This document shows, in pieces, positions 25,286-32,089 of a DNA stretch of 32,253 bases (position 1 is its first letter; the number at the start of each line of letters is the position of its first letter). The translations under genes were made by a program, and so were the position numbers. This stretch comes from Rhodocyclaceae bacterium (GTDB lineage Bacteria; Pseudomonadota; Gammaproteobacteria; Burkholderiales; Rhodocyclaceae), in the NCBI GenBank assembly GCA_016880655.1, contig JAEHDA010000141.1, positions 1 to 32,253 on the forward strand. Direction: 5' to 3'. A model generated the notes under the pieces. It was given only the letters and a program-made list of their open reading frames with translations. It did no database searches and was not told where the DNA came from.

Positions 25286-25732
25286 ATGCAAGTGATTCTG
25301 ATGGAAAAAGTGGTGAATCTCGGCGCCCTCGGCGACATCGTCAAGGTCAAGGACGGCTATGCCCGCAACTTCCTGATCCCGCAGGGCAAGGCCAAGCGTG
25401 CTACGGAAGAGAACAAGAAAGTGTTCGAAGCGCGCCGTGCCGAACTCGAAAAGGCTCAGGGCGACAAGCTTGCCGTCGCACAAGGTGTCGCCGCCAAACT
25501 GGAAGGCCTGATCGTCCAGTTGACCCGCAAAGCGGGTGTCGATGGCCGCCTGTTCGGTTCTGTCGGCAATGCCGATATCGCCGAAGCGCTGGCTGCTCAG
25601 GGCATCGAAATCGAGAAGTCGGCAGTTCGTCTGCCGCTCGGCCCCATGAAGCAACTGGGCGAGAGCCAAGTCGAAATCGCCCTGCACTCGGATGTCGTTG
25701 CCAACATCACCGTGGTGATTGCGGCCGAGTAA
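25286..25732 (+). CDS. rplI: 50S ribosomal protein L9
   Basis: [40 protein letters not shown]. Confidence 0.98.
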
Positions 25733-25757
25733 GCGTCCGGTGTTTCCAGGACCAGTG

Positions 25758-25781
25758 AAGGGGCCGCATAGCGGCCCCTTT
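25758..25781 (+). terminator. Hairpin AAGGGGCCGC-ATA-GCGGCCCCTT, terminator/attenuator after rplI
   Basis: Perfect 10-bp stem, GC-rich, 3-nt written loop, short T run. Confidence 0.8.
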
Positions 25782-25787
25782 GCATTC

Positions 25788-26618
25788 ATGCGGGCCTTGA
25801 CGGTTGCAGGCAGCATGATGCTATGGATGGGCTTGGCCGATGCAGCAGAACCGCCTTTGCTGCTGGCGGAGCGCTATCGCGGCGGCATCGACGTCTCGCG
25901 ATACTGGGTCAGCGAGAAGCTTGATGGTGTTCGCGCCTCTTGGGATGGCCGGCAACTTCGTTTTCGGAGTGGCAATCCCGTTCCTGCGCCACAGTGGTTC
26001 GTTGCCGCGCTGCCCGGGCAAGCGCTTGATGGCGAACTCTGGCTTGGGCGTGGCACCTTCGATCAACTTTCCTCGATTGTTCGCCGCGAGCCACCCAGCG
26101 ATGCCGAATGGCGCCGAGTTCGCTATATGGTGTTCGAACTGCCCGATGCTCCCGGGACTTTCACCGAGCGGATCGAACGCATGCGACATGCCGCTGCGAT
26201 CGGCGTTCCGCCATGGCTGACTTTTGTCGAGCAGTTCCGCCTCGACGACGACAAGGCGCTACAGGAAAGGCTCGCCGATGTCGTGCGGCACGGCGGTGAG
26301 GGATTGATGTTGCATCGTGCAGATGCGCTGTACGAAACCGGACGCTCGCCTGTACTGCTGAAGTTAACGCCATGGCTGGATGCCGAGGCTCGCGTCGTGG
26401 CGCATCTGCCCGGCAAGGGCAAGTACGTCGGCATGACAGGTGCCCTGCGGGTGGAAACGCCGGACGGTCGTCGCTTTGCGCTCGGCAGCGGCCTTACGGA
26501 TCAGCAGCGCCAAGACCCACCCGCTATCGGTGCGTTGGTAACCTACCGCTATCGCGAACTTGGCCGGAACGGCATACCGCGCTTTGCAAGGTTCCTGCGG
26601 GTCAGGGAAGTATTCTGA
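25788..26618 (+). CDS. ligE: ATP-dependent DNA ligase, LigE-like, with predicted signal peptide
   Basis: Signal peptide MRALTVAGSMMLWMGLADA; nucleotidyltransferase motif EKLDGVRASWDG, LDGELWLGRG, GGEGLMLHRADALYETGRSPVLLKLTPWLDAEARV, C-terminal OB region. Confidence 0.87.
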   Translation: MRALTVAGSMMLWMGLADAAEPPLLLAERYRGGIDVSRYWVSEKLDGVRASWDGRQLRFRSGNPVPAPQWFVAALPGQALDGELWLGRGTFDQLSSIVRREPPSDAEWRRVRYMVFELPDAPGTFTERIERMRHAAAIGVPPWLTFVEQFRLDDDKALQERLADVVRHGGEGLMLHRADALYETGRSPVLLKLTPWLDAEARVVAHLPGKGKYVGMTGALRVETPDGRRFALGSGLTDQQRQDPPAIGALVTYRYRELGRNGIPRFARFLRVREVF

Positions 26619-26646
26619 CCCTGGCTTCCCAAAATACCGCCATCAT

Positions 26647-26681
26647 GGCATACTGCGTTCAACGTCTGAACGCAGTATGCC
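26647..26681. repeat. Perfect 15-bp inverted repeat GGCATACTGCGTTCA-acgtc-TGAACGCAGTATGCC
   Basis: Arms 26647-26661 and 26667-26681 are exact reverse complements with a 5-nt spacer; the ATG of the downstream regulator (26677-26679) lies in the right arm. Confidence 0.95.
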
Positions 26682-27039
26682 CGGCTTGAGTCTCTCTCCC
26701 AATCCATCCGAAGAAACCCACCTCCGTGTTCTGCGCCTGCTCGCAGGGAATCCGGAGATGAGCCAGCGCGAACTGGCCCAGGCGCTTGGTGTGAGTTTGG
26801 GGAAGACCAACTATTGCCTCAAGGCCATGTTGGAAAAGGGGCTGATCAAGGTGCGGAACTTCCGCAACAGCCAGAACAAGGCGGCCTACGCGTACTACCT
26901 GACCCCCGAAGGGATGAGGCGGAAAGCCGGCCTGACGGCTGGTTTCCTGAAGCGGAAGATTGCGGAATACCAGGCCCTGAGACGGGAAATTGAACTACTC
27001 AAGGCCGAAGCAGGGCGAATGGCTGAAACGGAAACCTGA
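26677..27039 (+). CDS. MarR-type EPS-associated transcriptional regulator
   Basis: ETHLRVLRLLAGNPEMSQRELAQALGVSLGKTNYCLKAMLEKGLIKVRNFRNSQNKAAYAYYLTPEGMRRKAGLTAGFLKRKIAEY; winged helix; next to sugar-nucleotide genes. Confidence 0.88.
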   Translation: MPGLSLSPNPSEETHLRVLRLLAGNPEMSQRELAQALGVSLGKTNYCLKAMLEKGLIKVRNFRNSQNKAAYAYYLTPEGMRRKAGLTAGFLKRKIAEYQALRREIELLKAEAGRMAETET

Positions 27040-27057: not shown

Positions 27058-28152
27058 ATGACCGAACAACCGAAAAAGATTGCGCTCATTACAGGAGTCA
27101 CCGGCCAGGACGGCGCCTACCTGGCTGAATTCCTGCTCGACAAGGGCTATGAAGTCCACGGTCTCAAGCGCCGCACCTCGCTGTTCAACACCGACCGCAT
27201 CGACCATCTGTTCCACGACCGCCATGAACCGGGCAAGCCGTTCTACCTCCATCACGGCGACATGACCGACTCCTCCTCGCTGGTGCGCATCATCCAGCAG
27301 GTCCAGCCCGACGAGATCTACAACCTCGCCGCCCAGAGCCACGTCGCGGTCTCCTTCGAGGAACCGGAATACACCGCCAACTCCGACGCGCTTGGCGTGC
27401 TGCGGGTGCTCGAAGCCATCCGCATCCTCGGCCTGGAAAAGAAGACGCGCTTCTACCAGGCCAGCACCTCCGAGCTCTACGGCCTGGTCCAGGAAACCCC
27501 CCAGAAGGAAACCACCCCCTTCTACCCCCGCAGCCCCTACGCCGTCGCCAAGCTCTACGGCTACTGGATCGTTGTGAACTACCGCGAGGCCTACGGCATG
27601 TATGCCTGCAACGGCATCCTGTTCAACCACGAGTCCCCGGTCCGCGGCGAGACTTTCGTCACCCGCAAGATCACCCGCGCGCTCGCCCGCATCAAGCTCG
27701 GCCTGCAGGAATGCCTGTACTTGGGCAACATGAACGCCAGGCGCGACTGGGGTCACGCTCGCGACTACGTCGAAATGCAGTGGCTGATGCTCCAGCAGGA
27801 CAAACCCGAAGACTTCGTCATCGCCACCGGCGTGCAGTACAGCGTGCGCGACTTCGTCAATGCCGCCGGCGCGGAACTGGGCATGCAGTTCCGCTGGGAA
27901 GGCGAGGGAGTCAATGAAGTCGGCTTTCTGGGCAACCAGGCCGTCGTCAAGGTCGACCCGCGCTACTTCCGCCCGACCGAAGTTGAAACCTTGCTCGGCG
28001 ACCCGAGCAAGGCCAAGCAGAAGCTCGGCTGGACACCGAAGACGAAGTTCGAGGACCTGGTCGCCGAGATGGTGCGCGAAGACCTCGCCAGCGCCGAGCG
28101 CGACGAGCTGGTCAAGAAGCATGGCTACAACGCCTACGATTACCACGAGTGA
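27058..28152 (+). CDS. gmd: GDP-mannose 4,6-dehydratase
   Basis: [111 protein letters not shown]. Confidence 0.98.
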
Positions 28153-29090
28153 CAAGCATGCAAAGGCGCAGCACGGTCCTGCTGACGGGCGGCTCAGGGA
28201 TGGTAGGGCGGAACGTCCTCGAACACCCCGCTGCAACAGAATGGAATTTCTTGGCACCCTCCAGTTCCGAGCTCGATCTGACTTGCCGCGATGATGTCTG
28301 TCGTTATATGAAGGCTCGTCAGCCCGATGTGGTCGTCCACGCTGCCGGACGCGTTGGCGGAATTCAGGCAAATATGTCGGCCCCGGTCGAATTTCTGGTA
28401 ACCAATCTGGATATCAATCGGAACGTCATCATGGCGGCTGCCGATGCTGGGGTTCCTCGGTTGCTCAACCTTGGCAGTTCGTGCATGTATCCCAGAAATG
28501 CAGCAAACCCGCTGCGTGAGGAAATGATCCTGAGCGGCGAACTTGAACCGACCAACGAGGGTTATGCGTTGGCGAAGATTGTTGGCGCGCGGCTGTGCGA
28601 CTACCTGCGTGCCGAGAGGGGGCTTGCCTACAAAACGATGATCCCGTGCAATATCTACGGGCGCCACGACAAGTTCAGTCCTGAACACTCTCACCTGATT
28701 CCTGCCGTGATTCACAAGCTGCATCGGGCAAAGGTGGAAGGTGCCCGGAAAGTAGATGTCTGGGGCGACGGTACCGCCCGTCGAGAGTTCATGTACGCCG
28801 GCGATCTGGCTGATGCAATTCTTCGCGGCCTTGCCCGATTCGATACCATGCCGGATACGATGAATATTGGTCTTGGTTTCGACCATTCAATTGACGAGTA
28901 CTACCGGATCGTTGCCAAGGTGCTCGGATGGGATGGTGTCTTCGAACATGACACGAGCAGGCCGGTGGGCATGCGGCAAAAGCTGGTTAGTACCGAGAGA
29001 CAGGTCGAGTGGGGCTGGCAAGCGGGTACGTCACTTGGTGATGGTGTCAGGATCACCTACGAGTATTTTCTTTCGGACTACTTGAAATGA
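28149..29090 (+). CDS. GDP-L-colitose synthase (ColC) or GDP-L-fucose synthase-like epimerase/reductase
   Basis: [76 protein letters not shown]; followed by ColD-like gene; GTG start in a GTGA overlap or ATG at 28158. Confidence 0.85.
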
Positions 29091-30253
29091 GCGTCAAGTA
29101 TCCTCTTGCCAGCACCACGTGGGACGCGACCGAACTCGCAGCAATGCAACGGGTAATTGCATCTGGCATGTTCACCATGGGCGAGAATGTTGCCGAGTTC
29201 GAGCGCGATTTTGCCCGCTATACAGGCAGTCGCCATTGCGTCATGGTGAATTCCGGTTCGTCGGCCAACCTGCTGATGATAGCGGCCCTCCGCTATACCC
29301 GGAACCCCGAACTTCTTGTCAAACCCGGCGACGAGGTGATAGTCCCGGCCGTCTCATGGAGCACCACGTACTACCCGCTGTACCAGTACGGGCTGAAGAT
29401 CAAATTCGTAGACATCGACCTGCAAACGCTCAATTACGACCTGGATCAACTCGCGCAAGCCGTCACTGACAAGACCCGCCTGATTGTTGCGGTCAATCTT
29501 CTCGGTAACCCAAATGACTTTTCCAGGATTGGCGAGATCGTCGCCGGGCGCCCGATCATCCTGGTCGAGGACAATTGCGAGTCGATGGGGGCGGAGTTCA
29601 ACGGTCGCAAGGCCGGCACCTTCGGTGTCATGGGCACGTTCAGTTCCTTCTTCTCGCACCACATTTCGACGATGGAAGGGGGAATGATCGTCACCGATGA
29701 CGAGGAGCTGCATCAAATCCTGCTTTCGCTGCGTGCTCATGGCTGGACCCGCAATCTGCCGAAGCACAACCATGTCTGCGGCACCAAGAGCGACGATCCC
29801 TTCGACGAGTCGTTCCGCTTCGTGTTGCCGGGCTACAACGTGCGTCCCATAGAACTCGAGGGTGCGCTGGGGGTCGAGCAACTCAGAAAACTGCCCGCGA
29901 TGGTCGCCGCGCGACGCGAGAATGGGCGTCTGCTTCAGGAGGTAATGGCGGACCATCCCACGGTATTGATTCAGAGCGAAACCGGAATGAGTAGCTGGTT
30001 CGGCTTCTCGCTTGTCATCCGTCCTGGCGCTTCCCTGACACGTCGGCAGCTGATCGACCGCCTCACCAAGCTTGGCTTCGAGTGCCGGCCGATTGTTGCC
30101 GGAAATTTCGCCAAGAATGAAGTAGTGAAGTATTTTGACGCCGAGATCTTTGGCGATTTGACTGCTGCTGACCATGTAGATCGCCATGGGCTTTTCGTGG
30201 GAAATCAGCACTACCCCATTCCTGACGCAGTGATGGCTTTGAGGGAAATCTAA
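29087..30253 (+). CDS. colD: GDP-4-keto-6-deoxymannose 3-dehydratase (ColD-like), DegT/AHBA aminotransferase fold
   Basis: [99 protein letters not shown] (His replaces PLP Lys), [13 protein letters not shown]. Confidence 0.88.
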
Positions 30254-30254
30254 G

Positions 30255-31028
30255 ATGAAGGCAGTCATCCTGGCCGGAGGGCTCGGTACACGCATTTCCG
30301 AGGAAACCCATCTAAAGCCCAAGCCCATGATCGACATCGGTGGCAAGCCAATCCTTTGGCACATCATGAAGATGTACTCGGCCCACGGCGTGAATGACTT
30401 CGTGATCTGTTGCGGTTACAAGGGCTACGTCATCAAGGAGTACTTCGCCAATTACTTTCTGCACATGTCGGATGTGACCTTCGACATGCGACACAACAAG
30501 ATGGAAGTGCACCAGCAAAAAGCCGAGCCTTGGCGTGTGACGCTCGTGGATACGGGCGACGAGACACTTACTGGTGGACGCCTGAGAAGGGTTGCCGATT
30601 ACGTCAAGAACGAAGAGGCATTTTGCTTCACCTACGGCGATGGTGTTGCCGATATCGATATTTCTCGCGAAATTGCATTCCACAGGCAACACGGTAAATG
30701 GGCGACCGTCACTGCCGTACAGCCGCCCGGCCGCTACGGCGCACTACAGATGGAGGGTGCCATGGTCGCCGGCTTCACTGAAAAGCCGCGCGGTGACGGC
30801 GGTCTCATCAACGGCGGTTTCTTCGTGCTGTCGCCCTGCTGCCTTGCTCTCATAGAAGGCGATCACACCAGTTGGGAAGGCGAGCCGCTGGTTCGCCTGG
30901 CAGAGCAGGAGCAGTTGGCTGCCTTCGAGCACCAGGGTTTCTGGCAGCCGATGGATACTTTGCGCGAGAAGAATTTGCTAGAGGATCTTTGGGCTTCCGG
31001 ACGTGCGCCGTGGAAGGTCTGGCAATGA
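30255..31028 (+). CDS. rfbF: Glucose-1-phosphate cytidylyltransferase
   Basis: MKAVILAGGLGTRISEETHLKPKPMIDIGGKPILWHIMKMYSAHGVNDFVICCGYKGYVIKEYF...FCFTYGDGVADIDI. Confidence 0.97.
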   Translation: MKAVILAGGLGTRISEETHLKPKPMIDIGGKPILWHIMKMYSAHGVNDFVICCGYKGYVIKEYFANYFLHMSDVTFDMRHNKMEVHQQKAEPWRVTLVDTGDETLTGGRLRRVADYVKNEEAFCFTYGDGVADIDISREIAFHRQHGKWATVTAVQPPGRYGALQMEGAMVAGFTEKPRGDGGLINGGFFVLSPCCLALIEGDHTSWEGEPLVRLAEQEQLAAFEHQGFWQPMDTLREKNLLEDLWASGRAPWKVWQ

Positions 31029-32089
31029 ACCCGGGATTCTGGCGCCGCAAGCGTGTATTTCTGACTGGCCACACGGGCTTCAAAGGCGGCTGGTTGTCGC
31101 TGTGGCTTGCCGAGTTGGGCGCCGAGGTGCACGGCTACGCGCTAGCGCCGCCGACCGACCCTAACTTCTTTTCCGTTACCGGCCTCGACCGGCGACTGGT
31201 TTCGAGCACCATTGCCGACATTCGCGATGCCGCTGCACTTGAGCGGGCCATGGGGGCGGCACAACCAGACATCGTGGTGCACCTTGCGGCACAACCGCTA
31301 GTGCGCCATTCCTATGCCGAGCCTGTCGAGACTTATACGGTCAATGTCATCGGGACGGTCAATCTGCTCGAAGCAGTGCGCCGAACGCCCGGTGTGAAGG
31401 CAGTGGTTAACGTCACTACCGACAAATGCTACGAGAACCGCGAATGGATCTGGCCCTATCGCGAGAACGAGGCGCTTGGCGGCTACGACCCCTACTCCAG
31501 CAGCAAGGCCTGCGCGGAGCTTGCCACCAGCGCTTGGCGCAGATCCTTCCTCGATGCCGCCGGCGTACGCGTGGCCAGCGCTCGCGCTGGCAATGTCATC
31601 GGCGGCGGCGACTGGGCTGCGGACCGCCTGGTGCCGGATTTCCTGCGCGCGCTGGATGCGGGCCGAACCCTGATGGTGCGCTCGCCGCATGCGATGCGTC
31701 CGTGGCAGCACGTGCTCGAACCACTCTCGGGCTATATCAAGCTGGCCGAAAGATTGTGCTCGGCCGGCGGGGATTTCGCGGAGGCTTGGAACTTCGGCCC
31801 TGACGAAGCCGATGCTCGTCCGGTGCAATGGATCGTGGAGACCCTTTGCGGTCGCGTGACGGGGGCAACCTGGGAGCGCGATGTCGCACCGCAGCCCCAT
31901 GAAGCGCACACGCTACGGCTGGACAGTGCCAAGGCACGCGCGCGCCTCGCGTGGCGTCCGCGCTGGAACCTGCAACGGGCGCTGGAAGCGACTCTGGACT
32001 GGCACCAGGCTTGGAAAGCGGGCGCAGAAATGGCCGACTTCAGCGTGCACCAAGTCCGCGAATACTCAATGACGGAAGGTGAAGCGTGA
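31025..32089 (+). CDS. rfbG: CDP-glucose 4,6-dehydratase
   Basis: FWRRKRVFLTGHTGFKGGWLSLWLAELGAEVHGYALAPPTDPNFF, TDKCYENREWIWPYRENEALGGYDPYSSSKACAEL; ATGA overlap with rfbF places the start at 31025, not the ORF-track 30872. Confidence 0.97.
   Translation: MNPGFWRRKRVFLTGHTGFKGGWLSLWLAELGAEVHGYALAPPTDPNFFSVTGLDRRLVSSTIADIRDAAALERAMGAAQPDIVVHLAAQPLVRHSYAEPVETYTVNVIGTVNLLEAVRRTPGVKAVVNVTTDKCYENREWIWPYRENEALGGYDPYSSSKACAELATSAWRRSFLDAAGVRVASARAGNVIGGGDWAADRLVPDFLRALDAGRTLMVRSPHAMRPWQHVLEPLSGYIKLAERLCSAGGDFAEAWNFGPDEADARPVQWIVETLCGRVTGATWERDVAPQPHEAHTLRLDSAKARARLAWRPRWNLQRALEATLDWHQAWKAGAEMADFSVHQVREYSMTEGEA

Follow-up and report, generated by a model that had tools for sequence, protein, structure and literature searches.

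We consider it very likely that the perfect inverted repeat at positions 26647-26681 of the window (the whole stretch of 32,253 nucleotides that was analyzed) acts as the operator of the TIGR04176 winged-helix regulator encoded next to it, which would bind it as a repressor of its own gene. The repeat is also probably the on/off switch site of the polysaccharide gene cluster. Judged by sequence comparison, the conserved feature is the inner 7 to 8 bp of each arm and not the full 15-bp symmetry. The element appears to be ordinary in kind, namely a MarR-type autoregulatory operator, and the family-wide GTTCA-N5-TGAAC site appears to be undescribed.

The repeat reads GGCATACTGCGTTCA-ACGTC-TGAACGCAGTATGCC; as originally predicted, both 15-bp arms are exact and the spacer measures 5 bp. 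A simple calculation gives ~6e-4 as the expected number of perfect 15-bp repeats with a spacer of 0 to 20 bp in 32 kb. A genome-wide search for the arm retrieved no second copy with fewer than two mismatches in the 2.56-Mb draft genome, and the core is not part of a scattered repeat. Rfam provided no credible match at the repeat. That it represents a dispersed repeat, or a terminator or boundary element of the ligase gene, whose stop codon lies 29 nt upstream and whose read-through RNA would contain a strong stem, can be virtually dismissed: the genome has no other copy, the core accompanies the regulator in relatives of many families, and no T run follows 3' of the repeat on the plus strand, which the original prediction had already taken to rule out a simple terminator.

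At the head of the EPS locus, where the regulator had been placed by that prediction, the TIGR04176 gene is followed by gmd, an fcl-like gene, an RfbH-like gene, rfbF, and rfbG (Table 1). The protein scored far above the curated cut-off of this NCBIfam model of EPS-associated MarR-family regulators (MarR_EPS), also in the search of its own genome (153.5 bits). A PDB search by sequence yielded no match to the regulator. Its AlphaFold model (mean pLDDT 86, pTM 0.69) shows a winged helix and one C-terminal helix of 42 residues, and Foldseek placed MepR and other MarR repressors on top, with the PadR-like Rv3488 and the archaeal AbfR2 also listed. With this winged helix and a palindrome that would lie over the transcription start beside its own gene, the system resembles the MarR autorepressors MepR, MexR, and HcaR. 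However, the protein departs from the usual MarR dimer helices: it has ~117 residues and, in the model, a single long C-terminal helix, which brings it closer to Rv3488 and to AbfR2, a biofilm regulator. The dimer geometry therefore stays a proposal, and this point was counted against the operator reading. No description of an operator for the TIGR04176 family was found in the open-licence literature; one member is merely listed as salt-induced in a transcriptome study (PMC10599003).

Table 1. Positions of the repeat, the putative promoter, and the surrounding genes in the window
Feature	Position	Strand	Details
DNA ligase gene	25719-26618		Upstream of the repeat
Weak -35-like element TTCCCA	26626..26631	+	17-bp spacer; sequence only
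Extended -10 element TGgCATACT	26646..26654	+	TG at -11 and [TC]AnnnT at -8 from the core recur in relatives
Left arm	26647..26661	+	Outer part is the -10 element
Conserved putative operator core GTTCA-ACGTC-TGAAC	26657..26671	.	Exact N5 core in 95/124 TIGR04176 loci
Predicted transcription start (A, last base of left arm)	26661	+	7 nt past the -10; placed from the -10 position
Right arm	26667..26681	+	Inner TGAACGCA common to the sister genome; next three bases GTA here, TGT in the sister
TIGR04176 MarR_EPS regulator, probable TTG start (alternative ATG 26677)	26686..27039	+	153.9 bits, cut-off 88
GDP-mannose 4,6-dehydratase (gmd), first structural gene of the locus	27058..28152	+	TIGR01472, 588 bits
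GDP-L-fucose synthase-like epimerase	28149..29090	+	NF047922, 309 bits, under cut-off of 500
RfbH-like sugar aminotransferase/dehydratase	29087..30253	+	NF011936, 265 bits, under cut-off of 423
Glucose-1-phosphate cytidylyltransferase (rfbF)	30255..31028	+	TIGR02623
CDP-glucose 4,6-dehydratase (rfbG)	31019..32089	+	TIGR02622

The original prediction proposed an alignment upstream of homologous regulators as a check. We ran it on 124 TIGR04176 loci from Beta- and Gammaproteobacteria and a few other groups (25 in the own genome and in relatives, 79 further named loci after removal of one duplicate, and 20 from the same family). Exact GTTCA-N5-TGAAC was present within 260 bp upstream of the gene in 95 loci and GTTCA-N4-TGAAC in a further 11, so that one or the other form accompanied 106 of the 124 genes. 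In an earlier count, all ten core bases were found in 78 of 105 loci, and the N5 core occurred in none of 5,250 shuffled upstream regions. The remaining 18 of the 124 loci had no exact nearby site, which was counted against the operator reading. Some of these exceptions have a core with one mismatch or farther upstream; near matches to the core were found in L015, L104, and L108, and an exact core farther upstream in L066, L087, L093, L102, L107, L081, and L094. In the Castellaniella-like loci L066, L087, and L093, several genes of the operon precede the regulator, and the core is found ~2.8 kb upstream, at the operon head and ahead of sugar-modifying genes; the genes in between in L066 encode a hexapeptide acyltransferase, a DegT aminotransferase, and a GFO/IDH oxidoreductase. 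The site is thus a feature of the polysaccharide operon's promoter and not merely of the regulator start codon.

The core was found across the whole protein tree, including its deepest branches, and in relatives from many families the conserved part of the arms has been kept with the regulator. The N4 and N5 forms group by protein clade, with 6 changes compared to a mean of 10.7 after shuffling, and none of 500 shuffles gave a value as low. Clustering of this kind is what joint change of protein and site would produce, though shared descent of the gene and the DNA preceding it contributes. Because a gene and the DNA upstream of it are passed on together, co-occurrence and spacer clustering alone do not prove which protein binds.

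Conservation by itself names no protein, and the operator at the EPS promoter might be bound mainly by another, more general regulator. We consider this improbable, given that the core tracks the TIGR04176 gene over the entire tree and is near-unique, and located at that gene, in the genomes that carry it. Among 12 such genomes of the window's family, an exact core accompanied the gene in 11, and just 6 additional exact cores were found across all 12, whereas 10 family genomes without the gene contained 20 exact cores, about two each. This near-uniqueness makes the TIGR04176 regulator look like a local, nearly one-target factor. A wider regulon in the own genome was considered and rejected: of the other two exact cores, one is located at the end of a prs-like gene and one within a pssA-like gene, both unrelated genes, and these cores most likely reflect chance. 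A strict promoter-plus-core pattern matched 9 times in 399 family genomes, with 4 matches at the regulator; the spacing of the -10 element is too variable for this test to be suitable in this family.

Conservation did not extend over the full arms. In the other 105 sites, pairing outside GTTCA/TGAAC was 0.41 to 0.46 over three bases and then fell to a background of 0.16 to 0.31. The 15-bp arms of the window were by far the longest among 79 sites compared, with runners-up of 11 and then 9 bp, and the outer right arm showed no family-wide conservation. The sister genome, a Rhodocyclales groundwater metagenome-assembled genome of the same genus (L008, identical to L101), is the closest relative that carries the regulator gene. 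Twelve of its 15 arm positions pair, and the three mismatching ones are adjacent, at the GTA/TGT difference, where all three bases are paired in the window only. The longest stretch kept between the intergenic DNA of window and sister is TCATGGCATACTGCGTTCAAC, followed by TGAACGCA. The best explanation for the perfect arms is a core next to a -10 element that, by coincidence, has a full mirror copy in the window. The outer right arm may be under selection, or may have become complementary through a templated mutation; template-switching correction of a quasi-palindrome was considered as an origin, with two genomes compared.

The promoter spacing agreed with the original prediction, TTCCCA being separated by 17 bp from CATACT (26649-26654), which places the -10 in the left arm. 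A scan detected no consensus sigma-70 promoter, and the -35 and -10 of the window match the consensus poorly. With positions counted from the first G of the core, TAnnnT peaked at -8 (32 of 95 sites) and TG at -11 (31 of 95), i.e., an extended -10 element, often TGnTAnnnT, whose end lies two bases upstream of the core. The spacing of the -10 was variable in the family of the window and, like the poor match to the consensus, was counted against the operator reading. Because the core abuts the -10, it would cover the start of transcription.

This geometry also bears on the second reading offered by the original prediction, an mRNA hairpin in which the start codon is sequestered, so that translation of the regulator would be under its control. 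The RNA of positions 26600-26720 (121 nt) was indeed 5.3 standard deviations more stable than its shuffles (z -5.3), and an in-frame ATG (26677-26679) is contained in the right arm. However, native mRNA starting at ~26661 would lack most of the left arm and could not form the strong hairpin; RNA from 26661 showed no gain in folding stability over its shuffles (z +1.0). Symmetry of the outer arms has not been kept, as seen in the background pairing past the third flanking base, and conservation concerns which bases make up the core rather than pairing as such. Furthermore, the ATG, although present as claimed, is doubtful as a start: in the sister genome, the sole in-frame start that follows the stop codon is a TTG, which aligns with TTG 26686 of the window. 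The regulator thus probably starts at this TTG, outside the stem, and ATG 26677 is a possible start to which the comparison lends no support. A clear Shine-Dalgarno sequence was found at neither codon. We therefore regard control by the hairpin as very improbable, and this part of the prediction was not supported; transcripts that read through from the ligase gene could adopt the structure nonetheless.

The comparison, with the N5 or N4 core in its usual place next to the -10, strongly supports the other reading of the original prediction, a MarR-type autoregulatory operator. We propose that a homodimer of the regulator binds GTTCA-N5-TGAAC, the half-sites of which are 10 bp apart from centre to centre, i.e., one helical turn. 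Bound right behind the -10 and over the transcription start, the regulator would exclude RNA polymerase. The regulator gene and, if co-transcribed, the EPS genes would be repressed together from one promoter, until some signal releases the regulator from the operator.

A further element accompanies the putative operator in many relatives. The ops/JUMPstart core (GCGGTAGCNTG), searched as GCGGTAG[CT]NTG, was present in 43 of the 124 loci (e.g., L059, L078, L082, L087, and L111), mostly between the operator and the regulator gene or at the operon head, and often within a longer common block, CGCTTGCTGATCGTGAyACaGCA-GGCGGTAGCGTG. We take GCGGTAG[CT]NTG to be the ops core (GGCGGTAGCGTG) known from RfaH-controlled operons. 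Leaders with the ops core mostly measured 76 to 163 nt, and those without it mostly 21 to 69 nt. One ops leader aligned weakly to the Rfam JUMPstart model (16 bits versus a gathering score of 35), and none of the leaders tested reached this score. The JUMPstart element has been described previously (PMC2864571). In contrast to these relatives, in which the core mostly lies in the leader downstream of the operator, the window contains no copy of GGCGGTAGCGTG with fewer than two mismatches; two exact copies of the ops core exist in its own genome, both on other contigs. A search of this genome (G000) for a NusG-domain gene (Pfam PF02357) was negative, whereas 10 of 14 control genomes were positive; the missing gene most likely corresponds to a gap in this draft, which is 86% complete.

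The co-occurrence of ops core and operator suggests that transcription is controlled at two steps, with an RfaH-like factor acting on elongation in addition to the repressor. We tentatively put forward, as a possibility and not as the probable case, a two-lock EPS cassette of Beta- and Gammaproteobacteria, in which a repressor operator over the transcription start is often followed by an ops/JUMPstart leader that calls an RfaH-like factor. If this were true, initiation and elongation would be gated separately, and lineages such as that of the window would have the first lock only.

Unusual arrangements of the putative operator were observed in individual relatives. In L050 (5040-5886), a first copy precedes an MNT nucleotidyltransferase/HepT-like pair of the toxin-antitoxin type, and the regulator that follows has a second copy of its own. 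In L107 (744-1860), operator and ops core are followed by genes for a ParE-like toxin and a 23S rRNA intervening-sequence protein and then by the regulator. Three near-identical operator-plus-ops heads are spaced in ~2-kb steps in L073 (1776-5924), the first two each preceding the same three genes, none of which matched Pfam; this arrangement looks like a tandem duplication of the promoter cassette. A second such head is present in L056, ~2,430 bp downstream of the regulator start, and is followed by a seemingly broken second copy of the regulator. Similarly, the polysaccharide locus of L077 (Methylophaga) harbors another TIGR04176-like gene, ~4.3 kb upstream of the regulator, that has an operator core to itself.

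Taken together, these data provide the uncharacterised TIGR04176 family, which occurs in polysaccharide loci across many proteobacteria and for which no function beyond the name was found in the open-licence literature, with a concrete and testable DNA target. The core, usually present once per genome, offers a means of locating the promoters of EPS operons even where the regulator gene lies inside the operon.
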